Positions 2,241 through 28,469 of a stretch of 64,000 nt of DNA are shown here, in pieces. Each line of letters opens with the position of its first letter. The stretch's first letter is position 1. Source of the DNA: Streptomyces cupreus (GTDB lineage Bacteria; Actinomycetota; Actinomycetes; Streptomycetales; Streptomycetaceae); the NCBI RefSeq assembly GCF_014257025.1, contig NZ_JACMSF010000008.1, positions 1 to 64,000 of the forward strand. The letters run 5' to 3'. The notes under the pieces were generated by a model. The model searched no databases and had not been told where the DNA came from. It saw only the letters and a list, made by a program, of their open reading frames with translations. Made by a program: the position numbers and the translations under genes.

Positions 2241-3277
2241 CGCTGGTGGCGCTGTGCAGCCTGAAGGGATCCCCGGGCGTGACCACGGCCGCCTTGGGGC
2301 TGGCGGCCGGGTGGCCGTCCGCGGAGCAGCCGGTGGTCGTCGAGTGCGATCCGGCTGGCGGCGACCTGCTGGGCCGCTACCGGCTGGAGACGGCTCCGGG
2401 GCTGATGAGCTTGGCCGCGGCCGCCCGGCACAGGGCAGAGCCGGGACTCGTCTGGCAGCACACGCAGCGGCTGCCCGGCGGGCTGCCGGTGGTGGTCGGT
2501 CCGGCGGGTGCGGATCAGGCTCGTGCGTCGCTTGCCCAGCTTGCCCCGAGTGGAACCGGGGTCGGGGTGCTGCGGCGGGCCGCGGACCGCGCCGGGACCG
2601 TGGTGATGGCCGACTGTGGGCGCATCGACCGGGACTCCCCGGCGCTGCAGGTGGTCCACGAGGCCGACGTCATGCTGCTGCTGGCCCGCGCTCGCGACGA
2701 CGCCCTGGCCCATGTGGCCACGCAATGGGACACCGCGGCGTGCTGGTCGCGACGTCCCTGCTTCGTGCTGGTCGGCGACGGCTATCCGACTGGCGAGGTC
2801 GCGCGGGAGCTGGCGGTCGACGTGATGGCCCGCATCCCGGAGGACCCGAAGGGCGCCGGAGCACTGGGCGGACGCCCCGGGCGTCGCTCGGCACCGGCCC
2901 GTTCACCCCTCGGCCGCGCCCTGGCCCAGATTGCCGAGCTGGCCGCCTCCCGTGTCCTCGATCCTCCCGGCCGGGTGCTGGAACGAACCACGAACTCAGC
3001 CCCGGTGCGAGTCTCGTCGGCCGTTCGGTCAGTCAGGCCGGCGATCCGAGCCAGCCATGGAGTGAGTTACGGCGATGACCGAACCGAAGAAGACATACAC
3101 AGCCCTGCCGTACGAAGGAGCCGTCCCACCACCGGAGGGAGACGGACAGCCACCCACCCGCTCCGCCCTGGTGAACGGTCTCAGCAACCGCCGGACGCAG
3201 ATCGGTCCGCCGGCCGAGCGGCTGCGCCTCCACCTGCGACAGCAACTCTCGGAGCGGATGGCGCAACAGATCCGTGA
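2237..3277 (+). CDS. CpaE/TadZ-like P-loop protein of the Tad locus
   Basis: The GTG start at 2237 overlaps the upstream stop. The product of about 346 residues starts LVALCSLKGSPGVTTAALGLA, a ParA/MinD-type fold with a divergent P-loop (no Lys in the usual GKT position). It continues with VVVECDPAGGDLLGRY (switch/Walker A' region) and VVMADCGRIDRDSPAL. CpaE/TadZ proteins position the pilus machine at the cell pole. The odd part is the 3' end: the frame runs on about 200 bases into tadA (start 3075). A neighbouring frame ends with TGA at 3076-3078, exactly overlapping the tadA ATG, so a recent frameshift after about 2960 may have lengthened this protein. Confidence 0.75.
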   Translation: MTLVALCSLKGSPGVTTAALGLAAGWPSAEQPVVVECDPAGGDLLGRYRLETAPGLMSLAAAARHRAEPGLVWQHTQRLPGGLPVVVGPAGADQARASLAQLAPSGTGVGVLRRAADRAGTVVMADCGRIDRDSPALQVVHEADVMLLLARARDDALAHVATQWDTAACWSRRPCFVLVGDGYPTGEVARELAVDVMARIPEDPKGAGALGGRPGRRSAPARSPLGRALAQIAELAASRVLDPPGRVLERTTNSAPVRVSSAVRSVRPAIRASHGVSYGDDRTEEDIHSPAVRRSRPTTGGRRTATHPLRPGERSQQPPDADRSAGRAAAPPPATATLGADGATDP

Positions 3278-4526
3278 CGACGAGGCCGCAGGCCGCCCGC
3301 CGATGACCGACGCCGTCCGCCTGGCCCTGGCGGAGAAGATCCTCGCGGACGCCGCCGAGGAGTACGCCCACAAGTCGCTCACTGGCGGACAGACGGTAGT
3401 GGTGCCTGATGTCGAGCAGATGGTCATCACGACCGTGCTGAACGAGGTGTTCGGGCTGGCCGGGCTGGAGCCGCTGCTGAAGGACCCGCTGATCGAGAAC
3501 ATCAATGTCACCGGCGACCGGGTCTTCGTGCGCTTTGCCGACGGCCGCCGCGAACGCCTGCCACCGGTGGTCGGCTCCGACGTAGAGCTGGTGCAGCTCG
3601 TCCGCGACTTGGCAGCCCGCAGCGGGCTGGAGGAACGCCGCTTCGACCGAGGAAGTCCCGGAGTGAGCTTCCAACTTCCCGGCGGAGAGCGGGCATTCGC
3701 AGTGATGGCGGTCACCACCCGCCCGTCGCTGTCCATCAGACGGCACCGCTTCCAGCGCGCCACCCTCGCTCAACTGCGCGAGAACGGCACCCTCGACCCG
3801 AGCTTGCAGTCCCTGCTCGCCGCGATGGTCCGCGCGCGCAAGAACATCCTGATCACCGGCGGGACGGCAATCGGCAAGACGACCATGCTGCGCGCCCTCG
3901 CCGCCGAGATCCCGCCGTGGGAGCGGCTGGTCACCGTTGAGGACGTCTTCGAACTCGGCCTGGACGTCGACGAGCAGGCGCACCCGGACGTGGTGGCGAT
4001 GCAGGCGCGCGAGGCGAACATTGAGGGCCAGGGCGAGGTCAGCCAGGCCGAGTTGGTGCGGTGGGCGCTGCGCATGTCCCCGGACCGGGTGATCGTCGGA
4101 GAGGTCCGCGGGCCTGAGGTCATCCCGATGTGCAACGCGATGTCCCAGGGCAACGACGGCTCCATGGGCACGCTCCACGCCTCCACGAGCCGAGGAGCGT
4201 TCACCAAGCTGGCCGCTTACGCCGTCCAGGGCCCCGAGCGGCTGCCGCTGGAGGCCACCAACCTCCTGGTCGCCAGCGCGCTCGACTTCGTCGTCCACCT
4301 GGACAAACCCCGCGGCCACGAGGACCAGCGCGTGGTGTCCTCCATCCGGGAGATCGTCGACGCCGACGACAAGCAGATCGTCTCCAACGAAGTCTTCCGC
4401 CCCGGACCGGACCTGCGCGCGGTACCCGGCGTGCCGCTGCGCACAGAAACCATGGAGGACCTGGTTGCGGCCGGCTTCAAACCGGAGGCGATCGACCACC
4501 CCGAGTGGATGTGGCCCCAGCCATGA
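3075..4526 (+). CDS. tadA: TadA/CpaF-family pilus assembly ATPase
   Basis: The 483-residue product is a secretion ATPase of the type II/IV (CpaF/TadA) family that powers Flp pilin assembly at the inner face of the membrane. It has an N-terminal domain (residues 1-230), a Walker A (TGGTAIGKTT, about 260-269), an Asp-box-like VTVEDVFEL, a Walker B (RVIVGEVRGPE, about 337) and a His box (GTLHAS, about 365). Length and motifs are complete. The ATG lies behind GGAGTGAG. The stop overlaps the tadB start in ATGA, indicating coupled translation in a tad operon. Confidence 0.9.
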   Translation: MTEPKKTYTALPYEGAVPPPEGDGQPPTRSALVNGLSNRRTQIGPPAERLRLHLRQQLSERMAQQIRDDEAAGRPPMTDAVRLALAEKILADAAEEYAHKSLTGGQTVVVPDVEQMVITTVLNEVFGLAGLEPLLKDPLIENINVTGDRVFVRFADGRRERLPPVVGSDVELVQLVRDLAARSGLEERRFDRGSPGVSFQLPGGERAFAVMAVTTRPSLSIRRHRFQRATLAQLRENGTLDPSLQSLLAAMVRARKNILITGGTAIGKTTMLRALAAEIPPWERLVTVEDVFELGLDVDEQAHPDVVAMQAREANIEGQGEVSQAELVRWALRMSPDRVIVGEVRGPEVIPMCNAMSQGNDGSMGTLHASTSRGAFTKLAAYAVQGPERLPLEATNLLVASALDFVVHLDKPRGHEDQRVVSSIREIVDADDKQIVSNEVFRPGPDLRAVPGVPLRTETMEDLVAAGFKPEAIDHPEWMWPQP

Positions 4527-5422
4527 CCGGATACGTGTCCGTGATGGGACTCCTGGGCCTCGGCGCAGGGTGCGGGCTGGTGCTCCTGATACGCGCGTGG
4601 CGGGCCCCCGCCTACGTGGCTGGTCCGGTTCGCCGCCCGTGGCGGCGCGAGTCGCGCCGCCATGTCCGGCGCTGGCTGGCGGTCGCGGTCGGGGCGGGGC
4701 TGCTGGTTGGGGCCATGACCGGGTGGGTTGTCGGCGGACTGCTGGCGGCGATGGGCGGCTGGAGCCTGCCGCGGATCCTCGGCTCCGGCACGGCCGATCG
4801 AGAGCAGACCGCCCGGATCGAAGGCATCGCCGGATGGACGGAGATGCTGCGCGACACCCTCGCCGCTGCAGTCGGCCTGGAACAGACGATCCTGGCCACC
4901 GCCCCCGCCGCGCCGGAGGCCATCCGCCCCCAAGTAGCTGATCTAGTCGCCCGGTTGGAGCGCGGCGAGCGCCTGAACACCTCATTGCGGCACCTGGCGG
5001 ACGACCTGGCCGACCCGACCGCCGACCTGGTGATCGCCGCCCTGATCCTCTCCTCGGAGCACCAGGCCCGGCAACTCGCCCCGCTGCTGGGCGAACTCGC
5101 CGCCACCGCCCGTGCGCAGGTGGAGATGCGCCACCGGGTTGAGGCCAGCCGCACTCGCACCCGGACCACCATGCGCGTCGTGGTGATCACCACGCTGGCC
5201 TTCGCGGGCGCCCTGATCCTGTTCAACCCGCAATTCCTCACTCCTTACGACTCCGTGGCCGGGCAACTGATCCTGCTCCTGATCGGGGCACTGTTCACGG
5301 TCGCCTTCGTGTGGCTGCGTCGCATGGCCCGCATCGAGGAACCGGAACGCTTCTTCACCGGGCTGGAGAACGTCGGCCGGACACCCGAGGCCGCGGCGAC
5401 CATGCATCAGGAGGTGACCTGA
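4523..5422 (+). CDS. tadB: TadB-like type II secretion F-domain membrane protein
   Basis: The 299-residue integral membrane protein has an N-terminal helix (GLLGLGAGCGLVLLIRAW), a second hydrophobic pair near residues 52-80, and a cytoplasmic T2SSF domain (about 95-215, including GLEQTILATAP and ALILSSEHQARQLAPLLGELA). A C-terminal helix pair follows (VVVITTLAFAGALILF and LILLLIGALFTVAFVWL). TadB and TadC form the inner-membrane platform on which TadA acts. ATG 4523 overlaps the tadA stop. The gene appears intact and ends one base before the tadC start. Confidence 0.85.
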   Translation: MTGYVSVMGLLGLGAGCGLVLLIRAWRAPAYVAGPVRRPWRRESRRHVRRWLAVAVGAGLLVGAMTGWVVGGLLAAMGGWSLPRILGSGTADREQTARIEGIAGWTEMLRDTLAAAVGLEQTILATAPAAPEAIRPQVADLVARLERGERLNTSLRHLADDLADPTADLVIAALILSSEHQARQLAPLLGELAATARAQVEMRHRVEASRTRTRTTMRVVVITTLAFAGALILFNPQFLTPYDSVAGQLILLLIGALFTVAFVWLRRMARIEEPERFFTGLENVGRTPEAAATMHQEVT

Positions 5423-6316
5423 ATGATTGCCCTGGTGCTGCTGGGCGCCGGGGCCGGCCTGGGCCTGTGGGCGCTGGTGGTGTGGCTGATCCCGCCCCGC
5501 CCGCCCCTGGCCGCGCTGATCTCCCGGCTGAACGCCACTCCCGCGCGGCCGCCGATCCTCACCACCGAGACGGGCGGCTGGGCCGTACGACTCGGCAGCC
5601 CGTTCAGCGGCCTGCTGCGCGCGCTCGGCCTGCCCGGCCGCACGGTCAGTCAGGACCTCGCCATCGCCGAACGGTCACCCGAAACCCACCTGGCGGAGAA
5701 GGCCGCGCTGGCACTGACCGGGCTGCTGCTGCCCGCCACGGTCGGTGTGCTGCTGACTCTGGCGGGCCGCCCGTTGCCCTGGCCCGTGCCGCTGGGCGGC
5801 TCGCTGGCCCTGGCGGTCGCCGGTTTCCTCCTGCCGGATGCGACGGTGCGGGCAGAGGCCGAACGGCGCCGACAGGCCTTCCGTCACGCGCTGGGCGCCT
5901 ACCTGAACCTGATCCACGTCCTGCTCGCCGGAGGCGCCGGTGTCGACGGTGCCCTCATCGACGCGGCTGGCATCGGGCAGGGCTGGTCGTTCCGGCAGCT
6001 GCGGCGCGCGCTGAACACCGCCCGCCTTACCCGTACGTCCCCCTAGGTGGCCCTGGGGCAGCTCGGCGAGGAACTCCAGGTCAGCGAGCTGACTGAACTC
6101 GCCGCAGCGCTCTCCCTGGCGGGTACGGAGGGCGCCAAGGTCCGGGCCTCGCTCGCCGCCAAGGCTGCCGCCATGCGACAACGCAGCGGCGCCGAAGCCG
6201 AAGGCAAAGCCAACGCCGCCACGGAACGGATGGCCCTGCCCGGCATTCTCATGGCCTTCGGCTTCATCATCTTCGTCTTCTATCCCGCTCTGACTCAGAT
6301 CACGAACTCCCTGTGA
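5423..6316 (+). pseudogene. tadC: TadC-like pilus assembly gene interrupted by an in-frame amber codon
   Basis: Two open stretches lie in the same frame. The first (5423-6043) encodes 207 residues ending ...ARLTRTSP. The second (6047-6316) encodes 89 residues beginning VALGQLGEELQVSELTELAAAL. They are separated only by TAG at 6044-6046. Without that stop the product would be 297 residues, the normal TadC length, with a T2SSF domain spanning the break and a C-terminal helix (PGILMAFGFIIFVFYPAL). Family members usually have a tryptophan here (SPW), so TGG to TAG is the simplest explanation. A GTG directly after the TAG could reinitiate translation, but the T2SSF domain would still be split. Confidence 0.8.
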
Positions 6317-6346
6317 AAGGCGTCGACGCCAGAAGGAATTGCCCTG

Positions 6347-6532
6347 ATGTCTCTGCTGAATTCGATTGCGACCCGAGCCCGGTCCTTGATCGCCAGTCTC
6401 GCCCACGACGATCGCGGGGTCACCACGGAGCACGTCATCTGGATCGCGGGTCTCGCGGCCCTCGCCCTCACTATCGTCGGCATCTTCGGCCCGGAGATCA
6501 CCGCCGCGGCCAAGAGCGTCGTGTTCAAGTAG
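6347..6532 (+). CDS. Flp-type pilin (small membrane protein)
   Basis: The 61-residue product has a basic N-terminus, then DDRGVTTEHVIWIAGLAALA and a long hydrophobic stretch (residues 25-50). A Gly-x-x-x-x-Glu arrangement at the start of the hydrophobic helix is the hallmark of class III/Flp prepilins, the subunit polymerised by TadABC. GAAGGA precedes the ATG. The position between tadC and the TadE-like genes fits. No prepilin peptidase gene is visible in the window. Confidence 0.75.
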   Translation: MSLLNSIATRARSLIASLAHDDRGVTTEHVIWIAGLAALALTIVGIFGPEITAAAKSVVFK

Positions 6533-6542
6533 GCGTGCCGAC

Positions 6543-7052
6543 ATGACACTTACCGCGGTCGGACAGCAACATCGCACATGGCGCCCCGACCACACCGGCA
6601 CCCGCCTGCGCACTGGCCTGCTGCGGGACGAGCGGGGGGCGGTCACCACCGAGATGGTGATCATCATGCCGGTGCTGCTCACCATGGTGCTGTTACTCGC
6701 GCAGGCCGCCGTCTGGTGGCACGCCGTCCACATCGCGCAGGCCACCTCCGCCCATGCCCTGGCGGTCGCCCGCGTCCAGGACGGCACCGTCTCCGGCGGC
6801 CAGAAGGAGGCCCAGCGGATTCTCGACCAACTCGGCCGCGGACCACTGCGCAGTGCGCACGTCACCGTCACCCGCACCGCCGACCGCACCGAGGTTCACG
6901 TCACCGGTACGGCCACCAGCGTCGTCCCCTTCCTGCACCTGCCAGTGCGCACCCATGCGTCCGGCCCTGTCGAACAGTTCCGCCCGAACCCCCGTGGGTT
7001 CGCGAATTCCGAAGCCGGTGCGGGTGGGAACCCACGTGTGGGTGGCCCGTGA
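6543..7052 (+). CDS. TadE-family minor pilin 1
   Basis: The 169-residue TadE-like protein has a cytoplasmic N-terminus of about 28 residues, then RGAVTTEMVIIMPVLLTMVL with the conserved Glu and membrane helix, and an extracellular domain ending near VRTHASGPVEQF. The last about 20 residues (RGFANSEAGAGGNPRVGGP) are encoded by the first copy of a repeat that also ends the next two minor-pilin genes. TadE/F/G proteins are pseudopilins or pilus-associated proteins. The start overlaps no neighbour; it lies ten bases after the Flp stop. Confidence 0.75.
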   Translation: MTLTAVGQQHRTWRPDHTGTRLRTGLLRDERGAVTTEMVIIMPVLLTMVLLLAQAAVWWHAVHIAQATSAHALAVARVQDGTVSGGQKEAQRILDQLGRGPLRSAHVTVTRTADRTEVHVTGTATSVVPFLHLPVRTHASGPVEQFRPNPRGFANSEAGAGGNPRVGGP

Positions 7053-7122
7053 TGTGGGGGCCTGGGGGCTTGAGTTCGCCAACCCGCGGTGGGTGCATGG
7101 GGTCAGTCCTTGCTCGCGGCAT
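6995..7122 (+). repeat. Degenerate about 120-bp repeat, copy 1
   Basis: It begins GTGGGTTCGCGAATTCCGAAG (first 20 bases from 6995), encodes the last 19 codons and stop of the TadE-like gene, and continues past the stop to TTGCTCGCG at about 7112-7122. Copies 2 (7627) and 3 (9265) share the GTTCG-x-G-x-ATTC-x-GAAG core, a GAACC block about 20 bases later, GTGGG, a stop codon in the same phase and a further GTTC block. Confidence 0.6.
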
Positions 7123-7147
7123 TTCAGGTGGACGTACAGGCGCCGCG

Positions 7148-7687
7148 ATGAGACGGCTCCCGTGCAGCGCCGATCCCTGCCCAGCCGAGGGCCGGTGCGC
7201 CGGTTGTCTACTTGCCCTGCTGCGGCACGATGCGCGCGGATCGGTGACGGTCGAGCTGGTGATGACCATCCCCATCCTGATCCTGATGCTGTGGTTCCTG
7301 GTTTACAGCGGGCGGCTGTCCGACGCCCGGCTGCAGATCGAGGACGCCACCCACCAGGCCGCCCGCGCCGCCACCTTGGAGCGCAGCCGGTCAGCCGCCG
7401 CGGCCGACGCCCGCTCCACCGCGGCATCCGTCCTCGGTAACGCCGGCGTCACCTGCCGGACCCTGTCCGTCACCGTCCGCGGCACTCTGCAAGCCGGATC
7501 CACTGTCAGAGTCGCCGTCTCCTGCACCGTCGGCCTGCACGACCTGGCCCTGCTCCAGGTACCGGGGACGACCACCCTCACCGCCCAGTTCGCCTCACCG
7601 GTCGACGTCTACCGCTCAGGACCTCGCGGGTTCGAGGATTCTGAAGCCCGGCTGCCCCCGAACCGAAGTGTGGGTAGCGACTCGTGA
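7148..7687 (+). CDS. TadE-family minor pilin 2
   Basis: The 179-residue protein starts at ATG 7148. It has a Cys-rich N-terminal segment (PCSADPCPAEGRCAGC), then RGSVTVELVMTIPILILMLWF (conserved Glu plus membrane helix) and an outside domain ending near TAQFASPVDVYRSGP, where family members normally stop. The extra tail RGFEDSEARLPPNRSVGSDS comes from repeat copy 2 and parallels the tails of the flanking minor pilins. It is the last pilus gene before the minus-strand island. Confidence 0.75.
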   Translation: MRRLPCSADPCPAEGRCAGCLLALLRHDARGSVTVELVMTIPILILMLWFLVYSGRLSDARLQIEDATHQAARAATLERSRSAAAADARSTAASVLGNAGVTCRTLSVTVRGTLQAGSTVRVAVSCTVGLHDLALLQVPGTTTLTAQFASPVDVYRSGPRGFEDSEARLPPNRSVGSDS

Positions 7688-7745
7688 CTGTGTATGCGTG
7701 CTTGGGTTCATGCTCCCGGGGCGGAGCGTGTTCTTGCTCGCGCCA
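7627..7745 (+). repeat. Degenerate about 120-bp repeat, copy 2
   Basis: It begins GCGGGTTCGAGGATTCTGAA, provides the tail and stop of minor pilin 2, and ends near TTGCTCGCG at about 7733-7743. It is about 60 percent similar to copy 1 by eye, with substitutions that preserve the reading phase. Its right half overlaps the 3' end of the minus-strand hypothetical gene at 7708. Confidence 0.55.
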
Positions 7746-8043
7746 AACATGCAGCGCGAGCTGCGGTCCACACGGACTCGAACTCTGCGGCCGTCAGCTC
7801 TTGTGGATCGTGCTCTTCCCACTCGCCGACCGGATTTTCGGCCGTCCGGCCAAACACCGTCTCGTACTGGCCGACGGCTCCGGCCCGCTGGGCTGCGTCC
7901 CACTCGGCCAGCGCAGCGGCCGCAATGGGCTTCTCCAGCGGTCCTTGCAGCTCGACCTGGCGTGTGATCAAGCCGCCGGAGTCCGCCTCGAAGTAGAACC
8001 AGATGTCTTCTTCGAGCCAGTAGCTGCGGAACCAGCGCGTCAT
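7708..8043 (-). CDS. Hypothetical protein (111 aa) inserted in the Tad locus
   Basis: The product begins MTRWFRSYWLEEDIWFYFEADSG and contains EWEEHDPQELTAAEFESVW, an acidic aromatic-rich composition typical of small cytosolic Streptomyces proteins of unknown function. Codon use is typical. It is transcribed against the flanking pilus genes and starts within 55 bases of the stop of the next minus-strand gene, so both could share a transcript. I recognise no domain. Confidence 0.6.
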   Translation of the reverse strand: MTRWFRSYWLEEDIWFYFEADSGGLITRQVELQGPLEKPIAAAALAEWDAAQRAGAVGQYETVFGRTAENPVGEWEEHDPQELTAAEFESVWTAARAACLARARTRSAPGA

Positions 8044-8097
8044 CTCTCCATCTCTCGACAGCCGTTGAACGGTTTGGATTCGCGCACCTTTTACTGG

Positions 8098-8625
8098 CTA
8101 TACGACGGTCTTGCAGAACACGCCGTGCCCCTGGTTATGGGCACGGCGGGCCAAGGTGCGGAACGAGACCACGGTGTCTTGGGCGTCGCTGAAATCGGCA
8201 AAGTCGACCTCGGGGACGTCGAACCACTGCAAGGCGAGCAGCGGCAGGTGCTCGTCTTCGATCGCGGCGAGCGTTGCCACCCAGTTGTCCGGCAGTTGAT
8301 GCAGCAGCATCCCGGTGTCCCAGGGAGACTCCTGGCCTGGCTCTTCTTCCCTGGGTGGCCAGGACCTCTCGTCGGGCCAGATCAGCACGGGTCCGACATC
8401 ACGGGGATCGAATGGGGCAGCGGCTGCGAAGGCCAGCAACTGCCCCAGCACGACGTGCGGATCGAGGCCCTTGCCATCGAACCAATCGGCAGCGTGATCA
8501 TCCAGGCTGGTACCGGAGTGCTGATGCCAGTCCCCGTTGGGGCCGACGGCCCAGTCGATTGCGACCGAGCCTGCCGGCGCCCGGAAGTAGTCGTGCAGTA
8601 TGCCCATGGCCTGCAGCGTATCCAT
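8098..8625 (-). CDS. Hypothetical protein (175 aa) inserted in the Tad locus
   Basis: The 175-residue product begins MDTLQAMGILHDYFRAPAGS and contains DWFDGKGLDPHVVLGQLLAF and LLALQWFDVPEVDFADFSD. It looks like a folded cytosolic protein (mixed acidic/hydrophobic, no signal peptide or membrane helix), but I recognise no family. It may be cotranscribed with the tiny ORF just upstream (8629-8745) and the gene downstream (7708-8043). Its orientation, against the tad genes, suggests insertion rather than a pilus role. Confidence 0.6.
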   Translation of the reverse strand: MDTLQAMGILHDYFRAPAGSVAIDWAVGPNGDWHQHSGTSLDDHAADWFDGKGLDPHVVLGQLLAFAAAAPFDPRDVGPVLIWPDERSWPPREEEPGQESPWDTGMLLHQLPDNWVATLAAIEDEHLPLLALQWFDVPEVDFADFSDAQDTVVSFRTLARRAHNQGHGVFCKTVV

Positions 8626-8628
8626 CGC

Positions 8629-8745
8629 TCATCCCTCGACCGCGCTGCAGTTGAACTCCACCGTGCGTTCCTGGCCGAAGTCCTCGGCAACCGCCAGCCT
8701 CGGGGCCCGCGTCAATGCCCGATTCCGCACGGCCACCAGCGTCAT
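8629..8745 (-). CDS. Possible 38-residue ORF or gene fragment
   Basis: ATG 8743-8745 has GGAG five bases upstream, and the frame encodes MTLVAVRNRALTRAPRLAVA... ending VEFNCSAVEG. The stop lies three bases before the ATG of the next minus-strand gene. The composition is protein-like, but there is no recognised family. It could be the 3' part of a longer gene lost during rearrangement. Confidence 0.3.
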   Translation of the reverse strand: MTLVAVRNRALTRAPRLAVAEDFGQERTVEFNCSAVEG

Positions 8746-8815
8746 GACCGCTCCAGTTCGCCGCAACTGAACCAACGACTCTTGCGGCACGACGACCACT
8801 ACTGGAGGTGACACC

Positions 8816-9328
8816 GTGAGAACATCGCACCGACTCCCCACCCGCCTGGGCAACCTCGCCAGTGACCAAAGGGGCCAGGTCACCCCGTTCGTCGTCATCC
8901 TCGCGGTCGCCGTCGTGATGTTCGCCGGCCTCGTTGTGGACGGCGGCCTGGCACTGGCTGCCAAGGTCCGCGCCATCGGGGAAGCCCAGGAAGCCGGTCG
9001 CGCCGGCGCCCAGGCCCTGGACCTGGCCGCGTACCGCGACTCCGGCACCGTACGCCTCGTCCCCGACGGGGCACGCACGCTGGCCCAGAACTACCTCGCC
9101 TCCACCAGCGACTCCGGCACCGTCACCGTTATCGACGACACGGTCACGGTGACCGTCACCGCCCGCCAGCACACCCAACTCCTCGGTCTGCTCGGCCTTG
9201 ACTCCCTGACCGTGATCGGCAGCGGCTCCGCCCATCCCGCCCGGGGCATCACCGCCGAAGACCGTGAGTTCGCGAATTCCGAAGGGGTGTCTGGTGCGAA
9301 CCCGAGGGTGGTGGGCTCTGGTGGGTGA
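8816..9328 (+). CDS. TadG-like minor pilin 3
   Basis: The 170-residue product starts at GTG 8816 behind a strong GGAGGTG. It contains DQRGQVTPFVVILAVAVVMFAGLVVDGGLALAAK, the typical TadG N-terminal membrane segment, followed by an Ala-rich helix (AIGEAQEAGRAGAQALDLAAY) and a beta-rich outside region (TVTVIDDTVTVTVTA). The natural end seems to be near SAHPARGITAEDR; the terminal REFANSEGVSGANPRVVGSGG is from repeat copy 3. It is separated from the other pilus genes by the minus-strand island. Confidence 0.75.
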   Translation: MRTSHRLPTRLGNLASDQRGQVTPFVVILAVAVVMFAGLVVDGGLALAAKVRAIGEAQEAGRAGAQALDLAAYRDSGTVRLVPDGARTLAQNYLASTSDSGTVTVIDDTVTVTVTARQHTQLLGLLGLDSLTVIGSGSAHPARGITAEDREFANSEGVSGANPRVVGSGG

Positions 9329-9390
9329 GCGCTGGCCCTGGGGTTCGCGGACCGATGGGCCGGCTGGAGTGGGGCGCGGGTGCGGGGGCG
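9265..9390 (+). repeat. Degenerate about 120-bp repeat, copy 3
   Basis: It begins GTGAGTTCGCGAATTCCGAA, nearly identical to copy 1 over its first 20 bases. It includes the GAACC block (9298), a run of GTGGG, the stop of minor pilin 3 (9326-9328) and a later GGGGTTCGCGGACC block. It abuts the integrase remnant that begins at 9393 on the other strand. Confidence 0.55.
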
Positions 9391-9392
9391 GT

Positions 9393-9503
9393 CTACGGGA
9401 GTTGGGGTGGTTGGTGCTGGAGGTGGGCGATCGCCGGGTGGTCCAGGGTGTGGGTGTAGCGCTGGGCCCCTTCGACGCTGAGGCCGAACAGGTCGCACAG
9501 GAC
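9393..9503 (-). pseudogene. C-terminal remnant of a tyrosine recombinase/integrase
   Basis: On the minus strand, about 36 codons ending at a TAG (9393-9395) read CDLFGLSVEGAQRYTHTLDHP and then a short tail. This closely resembles the extreme C-terminus of a group of Streptomyces site-specific integrases (DLFGLS...A.RY...DHP). Nothing upstream on that strand belongs to an integrase; it joins Tad-regulator sequence at about 9503. I infer a leftover of a mobile element whose other parts were deleted. Confidence 0.45.
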
Positions 9504-10200
9504 CAGCCCGGCATCAACCTGCCCACCGGAGCGTTCGTCGGCATCGGCCTCGCCGCCCTGCTCACCGCCGCCCTGCTCACCGTGCGACGCCGCCGCCGCG
9601 TGCGCTACCGCCCCGGCAGCGGCGAACGCGACGACCTGACCATCGCCCCCGGCATACACGCCCTACGCCGTGCCTACGACGACGCCACCCGCAGCGACGG
9701 ACCTGAGGACCCCGACAGCGACCACCCGCAAACAGAAGCCCGCCAAGCCCGTCCAGAGGCCCTTCAGCCGACTGACGAAGACAGCGACGCGCCCACATCC
9801 CCATCGACAGACGGACGGGTCATCGGCGTCAAGGACGGCCAATCTCTCGCCTGGCACCTGGCCCGCGCTCAGGGACTCGGTCTCGTCGGCCCAGGAGCCC
9901 TCGGCGCCATCCGCGCCCTGCTGGTCGCCTTGCTCGGTGAACCCCGCCAACCCACCACCGCCCCCACCGAGATCCTCATTCCGGCCTCCGACGCCCGGAT
10001 GCTGATCGGCGAGCGCGCCGGCCACCTGACCCGGCTGCGCATCGTCGATGACATCGACGCAGCGCTGGATGCCATGGAGACGGAACTCCTCACCCGCGCC
10101 CGGACCCACACCGACCCTGACACGGCACCGGACGCCGACGACCCGCACCACGGCGACCTGGTGCTCGTCGCCACCTCCGCCCCGCACGCCGACCGCCGTC
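9504..10200 (+). pseudogene. Middle fragment of a Tad-associated BTAD/LysM-type regulator
   Basis: In frame, the sequence begins PGINLPTGAFVGIGLAALLTAAL (membrane helix) and RRRRRVRYRPGSG, then IHALRRAYDDATRS and later ILIPASDARMLIGERAG and HHGDLVLVATSAPHADRRL. This is the central part of the very large membrane-anchored transcriptional regulators found at the end of Streptomyces Tad loci. Those carry N-terminal membrane helices and LysM domains and a C-terminal bacterial transcriptional activation domain. Both ends are absent here. The frame runs without a stop into DNA methyltransferase sequence at about 10200, so the surviving ORF (from 9264 or an internal start, to 10703) is a chimera. 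Confidence 0.6.
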
Positions 10201-10703
10201 TCGACGCCATCCGCGAGCCCCTGGTCCGTCCCGAGGCGCTGGCCGAAGGCATCGTCATCGGCGGCTCCCGCAAGGGCCGCCGTGCGGGCATCGATGTGAC
10301 CGCACGGCGACGCGGTCAAAGTGTCTACGGAGTCGCCAAGTACACGGAGAGCACAGCCTTCTTAGCTCACCCACCGGGGGAGGGGTTGCGGCCCACCGGG
10401 TTTCGGCACACCTCTGGCCACGCCAAGGGCCGGAACCCCGGCGATGTCTGGTCGATGTCCCCCCGGCCGCTGCGCGCCGCTCACTTCGCGGCATTCCCCA
10501 TTGATCTGCCCTTGCGCTGCATTGGCGCCGGCTGTCCGCCCCGTGGCACCGTGCTCGATCCGTTCAGTGGCGCAGCCACGACCGCTCTTGCGGCTCGCCA
10601 ACTGGAACGCCGGTACATCGGTATCGACCTGCGCCGCGACTTTCACGACATCGGATTGGACCGGCTTGGCCTGCCTCGGCCGCGAGGTGAGGAGACGGCG
10701 TGA
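10200..10703 (+). pseudogene. C-terminal half of a beta-class DNA methyltransferase, fused to regulator fragment
   Basis: From about LDAIREPLVRPEALAEG onward the frame matches the C-terminal half of an N4-cytosine/N6-adenine DNA methyltransferase. It shows KGRNPGDVWSMSPRPLR, HFAAFPIDLPLRCI, the cofactor motif VLDPFSGAATTALAA and YIGIDL. Beta-class enzymes carry the catalytic (S/D)PPY motif in the N-terminal half, which is missing. The stop overlaps the GTG of the following methyltransferase N-terminus (GTGA), the arrangement of a tandem methyltransferase pair. It cannot be an active enzyme by itself. Confidence 0.7.
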
Positions 10704-23238: not shown

Positions 23239-24444
23239 TTACAGCTCGACCATCCCCGCGGTAAGCGTCGCCCCGTCCGCCGGGTCGATCACAATGAACG
23301 CTCCCGTTCGCCGGGAGACCCCATAGTCGTCCACCGCCAGCGGCTCCGCGGTGCGCAGCACGATGCGGCCCAGGTCGTTCGCCGTGAGCTCCGTCGCGCC
23401 CCCGAGATCCTGGACGATCGCCTTCACGGTCCGTGTCGTGTGCCGGACCAGGACCCGGTCGCCCACCCTGAGCGGACGGTCAGCCAGATGGCACACCGCC
23501 GCCCGGACCTCCCGCGTCAGCGCCGGCACCGCCACCCCCGCCGTGATCATGTCGCCGCGCGACACGTCCCGCTGATCGGCCAGCCGTACGCTGATCGACT
23601 GCGGCGCGTACGCCACGTCCTGGGCGGAGCCGAGCACATCGATGCCCGTGATCTGCGAGGTCTCTCCGGAGGGGTGCACCGTGACCCGGTCACCGACACG
23701 CAGCGCGCCGGACACCAACTGGCCCGCGCAGTACCGGGCTTCGCCGTCCCGGATGACGTACTGCACCGGGAAGCGGGCCGGGGCGTCCGCCGCCTCGACG
23801 CCGACGGGGACCTCCTCCAGGAACTCCAGCAGGGACGGACCCAGGTACCAGTCCATGTGCGCCGAGCGCTCCACCACGTTGTCGCCGACGAGCGCCGACA
23901 CCGGGATCGGAGTGAACCCGGGCAGCCCCAACTCGGCGGCGTGGCCCGCGAAGTCCTCGACGATCCGTTCGAACACCTGCTCCTCGTACCCGACGAGGTC
24001 CATCTTGTTGACGGCGAGCACGACATGCGGGACCCGCAACAGCCCGGCCACGGCGGCATGCCGACGCGTCTGCTCGACGACCCCGTTCCGGGCGTCCACG
24101 AGGATGATCGCCAGCTCGGCCGTGGAGGCGCCCGTGACCATGTTCCGCGTGTACTGCACATGGCCGGGGGTGTCGGCGAGGATGAACCGCCTGCGCGGGG
24201 TGGCGAAGTAGCGGTAGGCGACATCGATGGTGATGCCCTGCTCCCGCTCGGCGCGCAGACCGTCGGTCAGCAGCGCCAGGTCAGGGGCGTCCTGACCACG
24301 GTTGCGGGACGCGTGCTCCACCGCCTCCAACTGGTCGGCCAGCACCGACTTGGAGTCGTGCAACAGCCGCCCCACGAGCGTGGACTTGCCGTCGTCGACG
24401 GAACCGGCCGTGGCGAAACGCAGGGTGTCGATGGTCGTGCTCAT
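23239..24444 (-). CDS. cysN: Sulfate adenylyltransferase large subunit (GTPase)
   Basis: The 401-residue EF-Tu-like GTPase has P-loop GSVDDGKST (14-22), DTPGHVQYTRNM and NKMDL. CysN with CysD makes adenosine 5'-phosphosulfate from sulfate and ATP, using GTP hydrolysis to drive the reaction. There is no C-terminal APS kinase fusion, consistent with a separate cysC. It is the last gene of the cysC-cysD-cysN operon; its start lies two bases after the cysD stop. Confidence 0.92.
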   Translation of the reverse strand: MSTTIDTLRFATAGSVDDGKSTLVGRLLHDSKSVLADQLEAVEHASRNRGQDAPDLALLTDGLRAEREQGITIDVAYRYFATPRRRFILADTPGHVQYTRNMVTGASTAELAIILVDARNGVVEQTRRHAAVAGLLRVPHVVLAVNKMDLVGYEEQVFERIVEDFAGHAAELGLPGFTPIPVSALVGDNVVERSAHMDWYLGPSLLEFLEEVPVGVEAADAPARFPVQYVIRDGEARYCAGQLVSGALRVGDRVTVHPSGETSQITGIDVLGSAQDVAYAPQSISVRLADQRDVSRGDMITAGVAVPALTREVRAAVCHLADRPLRVGDRVLVRHTTRTVKAIVQDLGGATELTANDLGRIVLRTAEPLAVDDYGVSRRTGAFIVIDPADGATLTAGMVEL

Positions 24445-24446
24445 GC

Positions 24447-25349
24447 TTAGAAGTACCCCTCGCGCTTACGGTCTTCCATCGCGGCCTCGGACAGCTTGTC
24501 GTCCGCGCGGGTGGCGCCCCGCTCGGTGAGCCGGGACGCGGCGATCTCGGCGATCACCTTCTCGATGGTGTCGGCATCGGAGTCCACCGCGCCGGTGCAG
24601 GACATGTCGCCGACCGTGCGATAGCGCACCTGACGCTTCTCGACGGTCTCACCGGCCCTGGGCCCGCCCCACTCACCGGCGGTCAGCCACATGCCGCCCC
24701 GCGCGAACACCTCACGGTGATGGGCGTAGTAGATCTCGGGCAGCTCGATCCCCTCCCGGGCGATGTACTGCCAGACGTCCAGCTCGGTCCAGTTGGACAG
24801 CGGGAACACCCGCACATGCTCGCCGGGAGCGTGCCGCCCGTTGTACAGATTCCACAGCTCCGGCCGCTGCCGACGCGGGTCCCACTGCGAGAACTCGTCC
24901 CGCAGCGAGAACACCCGCTCCTTGGCCCGCGCCTTCTCCTCGTCGCGCCGCCCACCGCCGAACACCGCGTCGAAGCGCTCGGACTGGATCTTCTCCGTCA
25001 ACGGCAGGGTCTGGAGTGGATTCCGCGTCCCGTCGGCACGTTCGCGCAGCACACCCCGGTCGATGTAGTCCTGTACGGAGGCCACATGGAGCCGCAGCCC
25101 ATGTGCCGTCACCACACGGTCCCGGTAGTCGAGCACCTCGGGGAAGTTGTGCCCGGTGTCCACATGCAGCAGCGAGAACGGCACCGGCGCCGGCGCGAAC
25201 GCCTTCAGCGCCAGATACAGCATGACGATCGAGTCCTTGCCGCCGGAGAAAAGGATCACCGGCCGCTCGAACTCGCCCGCCACCTCGCGGAAGATGTGGA
25301 CCGCCTCGGACTCCAGGGCGTCCAGGTGAGAAAGGCCGAAGGAACTCAC
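24447..25349 (-). CDS. cysD: Sulfate adenylyltransferase small subunit
   Basis: The 300-residue PAPS-reductase-like ATP pyrophosphatase has the PP-loop SGGKDS (35-40), HVDTGHNFPEVLDYRD, FGGGRRDEEKARAKER and PLSNWTELDVWQYI. It forms the catalytic half of the CysDN ATP sulfurylase. The GTG start at 25349 overlaps the cysC stop (GTGA); an in-frame upstream extension is only cysC antisense-type sequence. It lies in the cys operon, transcribed against the flanking aromatic genes. Confidence 0.92.
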   Translation of the reverse strand: MSSFGLSHLDALESEAVHIFREVAGEFERPVILFSGGKDSIVMLYLALKAFAPAPVPFSLLHVDTGHNFPEVLDYRDRVVTAHGLRLHVASVQDYIDRGVLRERADGTRNPLQTLPLTEKIQSERFDAVFGGGRRDEEKARAKERVFSLRDEFSQWDPRRQRPELWNLYNGRHAPGEHVRVFPLSNWTELDVWQYIAREGIELPEIYYAHHREVFARGGMWLTAGEWGGPRAGETVEKRQVRYRTVGDMSCTGAVDSDADTIEKVIAEIAASRLTERGATRADDKLSEAAMEDRKREGYF

Positions 25350-25897
25350 ACCAGCCCCCGCTCCACCAGCACCGCGTACACGGCGTCCGCGGATTCGCCT
25401 GGGCTCTGCTCCTGCGTCCGCAACACCAGCGCCGGGTCCACCGGCGGCTCGTAGGGATCGTCGACGCCGGTGAGACCGGACAGCTCGCCCGAGGCCTGCT
25501 TGGCGTAGAGCCCCTTCACGTCCCGCTCGCTGCACACCTCGACCGGAGTGGCGACATGGACCTCGATGTACGGCGTCCCGCTCGCCTCATGACGTCGGCG
25601 CACCGCCTCGCGGCTGTCGGTGTAGGGGGCGATCACGGGGACGACGGAGAGCACGCCGTTGCGGGCCAGCACCTCGGAGACCAGGCCGATCCGCTGCACA
25701 TTGGTGTTGCGGTCCTCCTTGGAGAAGCCCAGGCCCGCGGAGAGGAAGCGGCGTATCTCGTCGCCGTCGAGGACCTCCACGCGATGTCCCTCGGCCTTCA
25801 GCCGGTCGCCCAGCAGACGGGCGACCGTCGTCTTGCCCGAGCTCGGCAGCCCGGTGAGCCAGATCGTGGCTCCCTGAGCCCTTGCCGTGGTGGTCAT
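25346..25897 (-). CDS. cysC: Adenylylsulfate kinase
   Basis: The 183-residue APS kinase begins with Walker A GLPSSGKTT (16-24) and continues VLDGDEIRRFLSAGLGFSKE and NGVLSVVPVIAPYTDSR. It phosphorylates APS to PAPS. ATG 25895-25897 is the only start with family similarity. It is first in the cysC-D-N operon, whose promoter must lie in the 25898-26027 gap before the paaX-like gene. No operator motif is recognised there. Confidence 0.92.
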   Translation of the reverse strand: MTTTARAQGATIWLTGLPSSGKTTVARLLGDRLKAEGHRVEVLDGDEIRRFLSAGLGFSKEDRNTNVQRIGLVSEVLARNGVLSVVPVIAPYTDSREAVRRRHEASGTPYIEVHVATPVEVCSERDVKGLYAKQASGELSGLTGVDDPYEPPVDPALVLRTQEQSPGESADAVYAVLVERGLV

Positions 25898-26027
25898 ACG
25901 CAACAGTCCTCTTTTTCTTACCTGGCATGCGACTCGATGCACGCTAGGTGAGAAATCTGAGAAGAGGAACGGAGGAGCCTGAGGGTTCTCTAAGTGACCG
26001 AAGTTGTGGCTGGGATCACAACAGGGA

Positions 26028-26849
26028 TCAGGCGTCGCCCAGCCCGGCGAAGACGGCCCCCGCGTCCCTGAGCCGCGTGTGCAGCGCCCGGAACACCGCC
26101 GCCGACCGCACCCCCGGCCAGTCCTCGGGCAGCAGCCGGGCGGGCAGCCCCGGATCGACGTACGGCAGATGGCGCCAGGAGTCCAGGGCGAGGAGGTAGT
26201 CGCGGTAGGCCTCCTCGGGCGGGGTGTCCGACCGCTGCTCCCAGGCATGCAGCACGCGCGCGTGGCGGTCGAGGAACGCCTCGTGCTCCTTGGCGACGGC
26301 CGCCAGGTCCCACCAGCGGGTGACGGCCTCGACGGTCGGCGCGAAGCCGAGATGCTCCCCGCGGAAGAAGTCGACGTACGCCTCCAGGCGCAGCCGGGCC
26401 AGGGTGTGCCGGGTCTCCTCGTACAGCCGCGCGGGCGCGATCCACACGCCGGGCGCGGCGGTGCCGAAGCCGAGGCCCGCCAGCCGGGAGCGCAGGACGT
26501 GCCGCTTCTGCCGCTCCGACTCCGGTACGGAGAACACCGCCAGCACCCAGCCCTCCTCGTCGGGCGGCGTGGTCGCGTAGATGCGCCGGTCGCCGTCGTC
26601 GAGCAACTGGCGGGCGTCCGGGGAGAGTTCGTAGCCGGCCGCGCCCTCGGCGGTACGGGCCGGCACGAGCAGCCCGCGCCGTTTGAGCCGGGACACCGAC
26701 GAGCGCACCGAGGGAGCGTCCACGCCCACCGCGGCCAGCAGCCGGATGAGTTCGGCGACGGGCACCGGGCCGGGCACGAAGCGGCCGTAGGCGCCGTAGA
26801 GCGTGACGATCAGGGACCGTGGTGCATGCTGGTCGGACACGTTGATCAT
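26028..26849 (-). CDS. PaaX-family transcriptional regulator
   Basis: The 273-residue product has an N-terminal winged helix (SLIVTLYGAYGRFVPGPVPV, VGVDAPSVRSSVSRLKRRGLL), the central domain typical of PaaX (GWVLAVFSVPESERQKRHVLRSRL, FGTAAPGVWIAP) and a C-terminal PaaX domain (DSWRHLPYVDPGLPARLLPEDW). PaaX-type proteins repress aryl-CoA catabolic genes and are released by the CoA-thioester intermediate. It lies 15 bases after the CoA ligase stop and is probably cotranscribed, giving feedback control through the operators at 28522 and 20003. Confidence 0.88.
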   Translation of the reverse strand: MINVSDQHAPRSLIVTLYGAYGRFVPGPVPVAELIRLLAAVGVDAPSVRSSVSRLKRRGLLVPARTAEGAAGYELSPDARQLLDDGDRRIYATTPPDEEGWVLAVFSVPESERQKRHVLRSRLAGLGFGTAAPGVWIAPARLYEETRHTLARLRLEAYVDFFRGEHLGFAPTVEAVTRWWDLAAVAKEHEAFLDRHARVLHAWEQRSDTPPEEAYRDYLLALDSWRHLPYVDPGLPARLLPEDWPGVRSAAVFRALHTRLRDAGAVFAGLGDA

Positions 26850-26864
26850 CTTAGGTCGTCGGCA

Positions 26865-28469
26865 TCACTGCCGGTCACCCGCGGCGTCGGCCGCGAGACG
26901 CAGCTTGAACCGCTGGAGCTTACCGGTCGCCGTGCGCGGCAGGGCGTCGAGGAACACGATCTCGCGTGGGCACTTGTACGGCGCGAGTTCCGCCTTGACG
27001 AAGGCGCGCAGTGCCTCCGCGTCCCGGCGTGCGCCCGGCCTGAGCACGGCGAACGCCATCACGACCTGTCCGCGCGCCGCGTCGGGTCGGCCCACGACCG
27101 CCGTCTCCAGCACATCCGGGTGGCGCAGCAGCGCCTCCTCGACCTCGGGGCCCGCGATGTTGTACCCGGCCGAGATGATCATGTCGTCCGCGCGGGCGAC
27201 GTAGCGGAAGTAGCCGTCACTTTCCCGGACGTAGGTGTCGCCGGTGATGTTCCAGCCGTGGCGCACGTACTCGCGCTGCCGGGGGTCGGCGAGATAGCGG
27301 CAGCCGACCGGTCCGCGCACCGCGAGCAGCCCGGGCTCCCCGTCGGGCTTCTCCCGGCCGTCGGTGTCGACCACGCGCGCGTGCCAGCCGGGGACCGGCA
27401 CCCCGGTCGTACCGGGCCTGATGTGCTCGTCGGCGGCGGAGACGAAGATGTGCAGCAGCTCGGTGGCGCCGATGCCGTTGATGATGCGCAGCCCGGTCCG
27501 CTCGTGCCAGGCCCGCCAGGTGGCGGCGGGCAGGTTCTCGCCGGCCGAGACACAGCGGCGCAGCGAGGAGACGTCGTGCCCGTCGAGGTCGGCGAGCATC
27601 GCGCGATAGGCGGTCGGCGCGGTGAACAGCACCGTCACCCGGTGCTCGGCGATGGCGGGCAGCAACTGCCGGGGACCGGCCTGTTCGAGCAGGAGCGCGC
27701 TCGCCCCGGCCCGTAGCGGGAAGACCACGAGCCCGCCGAGCCCGAAGGTGAAGCCGAGCGGGGGACTGCCGGTGAAGACATCGCCCATATGGGGCTGGAG
27801 CACATATTTGGAGAAGGTGTCCGCTATCGCCAACACATCCCGGTGGAAGTGCATACAGCCCTTGGGCCGTCCGGTGGTGCCCGAGGTGAAGGCGATCAGC
27901 GCCACGTCGTCGCAGGCGGTGTCCACGGCGGTGTACGGCGTGCTCGGCGCCGCCCGGTTCAGCAAGTCGTCCGGGGCGTCACCGCCGTAGGTGGCGATCC
28001 GCAGCCCGGGTACCTCCGCCTTGGCGAGATCGTCGACGGCCCGGATGTCGCACAGCGCGTGGCTGACCTCGGCCATGTCGCACATCGTGCGCAGCTCGTG
28101 CGGGCGCTGCTGGGCCAGCACCGTCACGGCGACCGCGCCCGCCTTCAGCACCGCAAGCCAGCAGGCCGCGAGCCACGGGGTGGTGGGGCCGCGCAGCAGC
28201 ACCCGGTTGCCGGGGACGACCCCGAGGTCGTCGGTCAGCAGATGCGCGAGCCGGTCGACACGGGCGCGCAGCTCGCCGTAGGTCCAGCTGCGGCTGGAGG
28301 CGGTGTGGAAGGCCGGGCGGTCGTCCGGGGGACCGTGCAGCAGCTCGGCGGCGCAGTTCAGCCGTTCGGGGTAACGCAGCTCCGGCAGATCGAAGCTGAG
28401 CTCGGGCCATTGGTCGGACGGCGGGAGATGGTCCCGCGCGAAGGTGTCGAGATGCGCCGAGACGTTCAT
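26865..28469 (-). CDS. Aryl-CoA ligase (AMP-binding; benzoate/2-aminobenzoate-CoA ligase type)
   Basis: The 534-residue ANL-superfamily enzyme has AFTSGTTGRPKG (193-204), GIGATELLHIF, ARADDMIISAGYNI and the C-terminal catalytic Lys in RTATGKLQR. The closest family by appearance is the benzoate/anthranilate-CoA ligase branch. It would activate the aromatic acid for the monooxygenase/OYE fusion. ATG 28467-28469 lies 53 bases from the operator-like palindrome shared with the divergent acyl-CoA dehydrogenase gene. Confidence 0.85.
   Translation of the reverse strand: MNVSAHLDTFARDHLPPSDQWPELSFDLPELRYPERLNCAAELLHGPPDDRPAFHTASSRSWTYGELRARVDRLAHLLTDDLGVVPGNRVLLRGPTTPWLAACWLAVLKAGAVAVTVLAQQRPHELRTMCDMAEVSHALCDIRAVDDLAKAEVPGLRIATYGGDAPDDLLNRAAPSTPYTAVDTACDDVALIAFTSGTTGRPKGCMHFHRDVLAIADTFSKYVLQPHMGDVFTGSPPLGFTFGLGGLVVFPLRAGASALLLEQAGPRQLLPAIAEHRVTVLFTAPTAYRAMLADLDGHDVSSLRRCVSAGENLPAATWRAWHERTGLRIINGIGATELLHIFVSAADEHIRPGTTGVPVPGWHARVVDTDGREKPDGEPGLLAVRGPVGCRYLADPRQREYVRHGWNITGDTYVRESDGYFRYVARADDMIISAGYNIAGPEVEEALLRHPDVLETAVVGRPDAARGQVVMAFAVLRPGARRDAEALRAFVKAELAPYKCPREIVFLDALPRTATGKLQRFKLRLAADAAGDRQ

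Follow-up and report, generated by a model that had tools for sequence, protein, structure and literature searches.

A tyrosine-recombinase transposon end as the probable source of shared pilin tails in a tad locus of Streptomyces cupreus

Repeat at the pilin 3′ ends

Three neighbouring pilin genes of Streptomyces cupreus (assembly GCF_014257025.1, contig NZ_JACMSF010000008.1) end in the same degenerate repeat. What is this repeat, and how did it come to encode the tails of three proteins? The window, i.e., the whole stretch analysed, comprises positions 1 to 64,000 of the forward strand; the copies lie at 6998, 7630 and 9268, all on the plus strand. The tails are very probably the end of a site-specific transposon of the tyrosine-recombinase type, inserted just before the pilin stops.

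The preliminary description of this locus held that the three tails are more alike than chance allows, to be checked against shuffled controls. Their ungapped three-way identity is 0.679 over 55 nucleotides (nt), with 29 of 55 columns invariant, while dinucleotide shuffles (n = 40, 195-nt regions, best over all registers) give a mean of 0.474 (standard deviation 0.010) and a maximum of 0.503; the resemblance is thus real. At up to three mismatches, GTTCGCGAATTCCGAAG matches the window three times where 0.15 matches are expected, a number reached in 0 of 100 shuffles. By Pfam, two of the window pilins are TadE and the third is Tad (TadE/G-like). The tail peptides of pilins 1 to 3 are GFANSEAGAGGNPRVGGP, GFEDSEARLPPNRSVGSDS and EFANSEGVSGANPRVVGSGG, each closed by a stop codon. 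Their common reading phase agrees with the C-terminal signature described before, but the stops are not at an identical position: they follow the G/E residue by 17, 17 and 19 residues. The related sequence reported after the stops is also confirmed and exceeds the length noted earlier: conservation runs from about 11 nt 5′ of GTTC to about +95, with a second box (box B), GGTTCnCGAACC-like, near +88 of the repeat.

Boundaries and far end of the element

A full-length element is present in the same genome. In contig C31 (locus L172; loci carry L numbers, host contigs C numbers), it occupies 3051-7061 and splits a DDE transposase gene. This gene is uninterrupted in three of three plasmid relatives (L174, L175 and L176), which all give the same boundaries. 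On the side of the repeat (the site side), the element extends 11 nt beyond GTTC; on the other side, next to the recombinase gene here called recA, it extends 11 nt beyond GAAC, followed by six more nt. No target DNA was lost. A six-base spacer on the site side had been considered and was rejected, as the comparison of C31 with its uninterrupted relatives puts the spacer on the recA side. The C31 element is a divergent subtype, with arms CCGCAAGTTC unlike those of the window copies; therefore, it may not mobilise the latter.

Some 150 nt beyond recA stands the far-end sequence GAACYCACGG, which is CCGTGRGTTC inverted. The last two of the six extra nt are CA in 12 and TA in 3 of the 15 elements listed; because this bias is unexpected for a mere copy of the donor flank, the six nt may be partly owned by the element.

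Applied blindly to the best-scoring far arm of the full elements in pilin genes, the C31 edge rule restores a stop within 10 codons of the removal point in six of six cases (3 codons in L027, 1 in L049, 3 in L050, 3 in L079, 10 in L105 and 9 in L112); the neighbouring offsets 7 and 8 do so in only 1 of 12 trials. After removal, the frames of L087 and L100 are open and stop-free in the stretch, and L041 gives a stop, with an ambiguous host frame; L026, L074, L055 and L097 had insufficient flank for this test. The far end was also searched in 11 copies without a nearby recombinase. Among those with a far arm of at least 8/10, removal restores a stop within nine codons in five of six: window copy 2, L016, L020, L063 and L057, two of them tied with a second arm. 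For L073 and L095, the search reached +1700 only, short of their recombinase operons, and they are not counted as tests.

Element copies in the window

The following features are recognized at the three pilin ends.

6543 to 7052, plus strand: TadE-like pilin 1 (Pfam TadE, 2.2e-6); native part to 6986, the rest element DNA
6987 to 7137, plus strand: element copy 1; about 40 nt follow the conserved end, which has GTTC at 6998 and box B near 7085
7148 to 7687, plus strand: TadE-like pilin 2 (Pfam TadE, 8.9e-10); native part to 7618
7619 to 8789, plus strand: element copy 2, 1171 bp, without recombinase; both ends present
7708 to 8043, minus strand: cargo gene 1, 111 amino acids, within copy 2
8098 to 8625, minus strand: cargo gene 2, 175 amino acids, within copy 2
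8816 to 9328, plus strand: third pilin, Tad family (Pfam Tad, 5.1e-5); native part to 9256
9257 to 9508, plus strand: element copy 3; conserved end and remnant, right edge approximate
9420 to 9500, minus strand: C-terminal fragment of the second recombinase-like gene, recB (DLFGLSVEGAQRYT...); recB profile positions 542-568, E 9.5e-5 for the whole genome

A tad locus of the same genus (L114) has three pilins without the inserts or tails of the window. Homology to L114 ends at 6983, 7615 and 9255, and the predicted insert starts, 6987, 7619 and 9257, follow directly. Copy 2 is the clearest case: its flanking blocks abut in L114 (1966 and 1967), so that 7619-8789 is an insert of 1171 bp. Its site arm lies at 7619-7633, its far arm at 8769-8783 and its six extra nt, GCGGCA, at 8784-8789. 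In silico removal gives VDVYRSRRPLLEVTP followed by a stop that overlaps the GTG start of pilin 3. The preliminary description had named recombination scars of an integrative element among its possibilities, which was essentially right: the element end itself encodes the tails.

Around copy 1, the gap between homologous blocks is 244 nt in the window against 93 nt in L114, i.e., about 151 nt extra; the remnant measures about 150 bp, and its right edge is uncertain (about 7137-7142). No far end was found for this copy, the best candidate arm scoring 6/10. Around copy 3, homology to L114 breaks off at 9255 and begins again at 9574, with 1061 nt in L114 against 318 in the window; the gene behind it has lost its 5′ part. 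The homologue of the third pilin in L114 ends in HGVNAPEP at its stop codon, and the tail is absent. The site-model E-values are 2.1e-20 for copy 1 and 1.1e-16 for copy 3, both copies being themselves in the training set of the model. Copies 1 and 3 are remnants, and copy 2 is a non-autonomous passenger element.

Neither cargo gene has a Pfam or NCBIfam match. Relatives of cargo gene 1, 53-70% identical, stand directly right of the site in L063, L020, L016/L043, L030 and L027; the last of these five distinct loci also carries recombinases. For cargo gene 2, a 71% identical protein occupies the equivalent place in L063.

The surroundings of the pilins also deviate from their relatives. Upstream, a tadB/tadC-like frame (5423-6316) is cut short by a TAG codon (6044-6046) at a point where the frame of relatives stays open; the tad locus of the window may be decaying. 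Downstream, one long frame at 9264-10700 fuses DNA of the element with what is left of the next tad gene and with a fragment of an N6/N4 DNA methylase (PF01555, 1.8e-17, residues 385-463), which indicates further rearrangement beyond copy 3.

Structure and distribution of the site

An IUPAC pattern of the site, with a spacer of 6-16 nt allowed, was searched in 295 genomes of the genus. It gave 10 matches in six genomes, all with a spacer of 12 or 13 nt, and the reversed pattern used as control gave none. Over the stretch that they share, loci from four genomes are 100% identical to named Streptomyces records, from which the genus is taken to be Streptomyces. A scan of 84,980 species genomes yielded 88 loci, of which 52 were retained and 36 discarded by eye on flanks and taxon. 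Scores outside the pattern total 10-18 for retained and 4-12 for discarded loci, a comparison that is not independent, the flanks having already been viewed. The distinct sites number 53, and 51 of them were aligned (L050 and L058 excluded). The alignment spans about 100 nt: N5-CCGTGRGTTC, GCGAATTCTGAAG, 12-13 variable nt, GAACYnACGG and box B. The GTTC/GAAC core belonged to the search pattern, so its conservation arises by construction; the parts outside the core were free to vary.

The host genome contains five sites at E ≤ 1e-5 with the site model, four of which were in its training set: the three of the window, C31:3052 and C128:53508. The C128 site (53508-53601, minus strand, E 8e-6) lies outside tad, and two of the five are thus outside the present tad locus, the outcome that the preliminary description would have taken as a sign of mobility. 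At other loci, the same end is found within transposase, ssb, O-methyltransferase and PLD-domain genes; it lies antisense in transposase genes (the C31 element and L019) and directly after the stop codon of tadC in L033, L036 and L111. In 18 of the 53 distinct sites, it is read as part of a Tad pilin frame, each time in one and the same phase (read by eye; Pfam was run on the window three only). The earlier idea of a small mobile repeat directed at gene 3′ ends is half right: such ends are often hit, but other targets occur too, and the repeat forms one terminus of a larger element.

Some sites coincide with breaks in the assemblies. In L032, L036 and L108, the contig ends 106-107 nt after GTTC, and in L071 and L074 it starts 13-20 nt before GTTC; multi-copy or circularising ends would produce such shared distances in an assembly graph. 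In L058, the site is incomplete (TPVSREFGNSEGIPVANFT) and an ssb frame runs across it; beyond it the frame still encodes SSB (Pfam, 2.7e-9), and the partial site may be a small in-frame scar.

Gene content

By motif search, recA and/or recB frames lie right of 21 of the 53 distinct sites, all on the opposite strand; the 21 include the window remnant and the doubtful L063, and 20 further sites had less than 3 kb of flank. The product of recA matches Pfam Phage_integrase (6e-19): a catalytic tyrosine recombinase is encoded inside the insert. Its motifs HxLRH and LGHxW..TT..Y are present in 12 of 12 sequences and GLRxxE in 11 of 12. A small protein encoded beside it matches HTH_26 (4e-14; helix-turn-helix, HTH). 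For recB, no match was found in Pfam or NCBIfam, and the catalytic boxes occur in 0 of 10 sequences. An AlphaFold model of recB (predicted local distance difference test 72.9, predicted template modelling score 0.37) was compared by Foldseek, and all 23 matches at E ≤ 0.001 are tyrosine recombinases by title. The recB product, a zinc-ribbon protein, is predicted from this model to have a recombinase-like fold.

In five of five annotated plasmids, recA, the HTH gene and recB stand side by side; a full-length element is carried, for example, by the plasmid of Streptomyces NBC_00334. The site adjoins recB in four of six plasmid records at E ≤ 6e-8; the fifth is weak (0.003), and the sixth is without a site. 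One of these sites had come up independently as a BLAST match of window sequence on a Streptomyces plasmid (E 0.01), 80 nt from recB. The plasmid elements are surrounded by genes for conjugation (type IV secretion) or lie within a tad locus. Relatives of recB occur in 97 plasmid records (38 with at least 80% coverage) and in 26 of 101 genomes of the genus at E ≤ 1e-20, hence the element is common; phage records gave 0 matches. Contig C132 of the host carries, at 100986-101375, an N-terminal recB fragment with an internal TGA, which is a further decayed copy of the element.

Alternative explanations

The preliminary description also offered a genuine C-terminal tag, for example, a sorting or anchoring signal of the secreted pilins. 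A tag would account for the 18 in-frame sites and their constant phase, but pilins of the same genus do without it, including all three in L114, the same DNA runs antisense in transposase genes, follows tadC stops and enters unrelated genes, and its conservation continues past the stop codon. The tag is therefore abandoned as extremely unlikely. An RNA structure at the pilin 3′ ends (a terminator, a regulatory hairpin or a self-cleaving RNA) finds support in the alignment: the 10-bp inverted repeat covaries, with 38 cells changed on both sides against 23.7 (standard deviation 3.9) in shuffles, and the covariation score is reached in 0 of 500 shuffles. The covariation check proposed earlier nevertheless gives a divided result, as three of five measures exceed the shuffles and two do not (129/500 and 236/500). 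In addition, four of the ten pairs were set by the search pattern itself, Rfam has 0 matches over 5500-10500 at E ≤ 1, and the same arms recur at the far end of the element, so that inverted arms bound by a protein account for the pattern just as well. An RNA function is accordingly very improbable, and the inverted repeat inside the site is read here as putative paired recombinase-binding arms.

An integron-like cassette array, with attC-like sites behind each gene, would fit the position of the sites at gene 3′ ends, their folded-looking inverted repeats and the single pilin flanked by two window sites. Yet what lies between sites 1 and 2 is the native pilin 2, syntenic in the empty L114, and full elements have the site at one end only, with a different far end; such an array can hardly be credited. 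Integron attC sites, group II introns and the ends of insertion sequences were all given up as readings when the recombinase trio and the empty sites came to light.

Several observations weigh against the transposon interpretation. In silico, the in-phase offsets 0, 3, 6 and 9 fit nearly as well as the C31 edges; therefore, the restored frames fix the phase only, and the exact edges rest on the C31 comparison. The inverted end arms match at 7-13 of 15 positions in 14 elements, partly by construction, as the far arms were picked by their likeness to GAACYCACGG. No convincing far arm was found in L051 and L091, nor, among copies without a recombinase, in window copies 1 and 3 and L040; L030 has a far arm of 9/10 and still needs 77 codons to a stop after removal. 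Of the 53 sites, 12 showed no recombinase by motif in spite of a flank of at least 3 kb, although divergent ones can escape such a search. The recB model is of moderate quality, with Foldseek template modelling scores by query length as low as 0.19-0.31, and the recA and recB profiles are not significantly similar in hhalign (E 0.12). Finally, the evidence base is sequence only, and movement was not observed.

Comparison with known elements

Transposons of this kind are already known: SE, GInt, RIT and Tn554-related elements (PMC10214605, PMC5385486, PMC3414803, PMC8138268). SE elements are likewise tyrosine-recombinase transposons, and their imperfect inverted ends measure 13-19 bp (about 15 in the present element). 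They have six foreign bases at one junction, to which the six nt described here may correspond, and like the present element they use few target locations; they also encode a recombinase-fold protein without catalytic motif, Tfp, to which recB would correspond (PMC10214605). In the same source, the six nt are described as a copy of the donor flank. SE elements differ in having four genes (intA, tfp, intB and srap) and two catalytic recombinases, against three genes and one recombinase here, and are reported there from Gammaproteobacteria only, while the present element occurs in actinobacteria.

GInt elements share the recombinase operon at one end, a variable cargo and a short conserved other end; 6-nt staggered cuts were proposed for them, and GinC, the third of their integrases, has an incomplete catalytic motif (PMC5385486). 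They carry ginABCD, with three integrase genes, in contrast to two recombinase-fold genes and an HTH gene here, and the phyla named in that account are Proteobacteria, Bacteroidetes, Firmicutes and Verrucomicrobia. RIT elements likewise have three adjacent genes for tyrosine recombinases, but these genes overlap and encode three recombinases, all with a possible catalytic motif, against one here (PMC3414803, PMC8138268).

The Tn554-related elements are site-specific and occur on actinobacterial plasmids, including Nocardioides pNOCA01; their recombinases, of about 350 and 600-800 amino acids, both have the catalytic motif, and the third gene, if any, is tnpC-like (PMC3414803). By description, the catalytic TnpA and TnpB plus TnpC are set apart from a recB without catalytic box (10 of 10) and HTH_26. 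On pNOCA01, the present element lies at 24370-27630, and a separate Phage_integrase pair at 110500 (frame of 419 amino acids) and 112524 (805 amino acids) has sizes that fit the Tn554-related class; hence, the present element is taken as different from the transposons of PMC3414803, as far as these are described there. In a library of openly licensed papers, no description of a recA-HTH-zinc-ribbon recB set was found. For other such elements, a folded single strand was proposed, and by analogy the inverted repeat of the site may act in this form.

Proposed mechanism and implications

A full element has, in this order, the 15-nt arm (N5-CCGTGRGTTC), the GCGAATTCTGAAG box, the inverted partner GAACYnACGG, box B and optional cargo; recB, the HTH gene and recA follow on the opposite strand, and then the GAACYCACGG-N5 arm and the six nt. 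Each repeat is very probably the recA-distal end of such an element, with one site per element. The end arms probably bind the recombinases, and the six nt may be the crossover spacer: recA would recombine at this spacer between the inverted arms, catalysing the movement with the HTH protein and recB as partners. Copies without recombinase would have been moved in trans. Insertion removes no target DNA and often takes place just inside a gene, a few codons ahead of its stop. Translation then continues into the element end, which adds roughly 8-21 residues as a new tail and, for most pilins, a stop; all three pilins of the window have received such a tail. By eye, the left target arms of several hosts are alike, as in GTCGACGTCTAC of pilin 2 and TTCGACAGCTAC of the PLD-domain gene of L087, a likeness that would explain why unrelated genes are struck in the same phase.

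There is about an even chance that these elements form a separate actinobacterial class of the copy-out/copy-in type, with one catalytic recombinase, an HTH protein and a dead zinc-ribbon homologue. Such a class would use a motif common to the 3′ ends of tad pilin genes and other genes, its readable end would spare the host gene while giving it a new C-terminus, and its recombinase-less cargo elements would be mobilised in trans.

The annotated plasmid records examined list recA as a recombinase but recB as a hypothetical protein; elements of this type are therefore easily overlooked. The odd tail shared by the pilins becomes a readable record of a mobile element, and annotators are warned that a transposon can encode the C-terminus of a pilin or conjugation gene. 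Because the ends are defined, empty sites are available and the genome itself has a full-length copy, the mechanism of movement is directly testable, including the role of the dead homologue.

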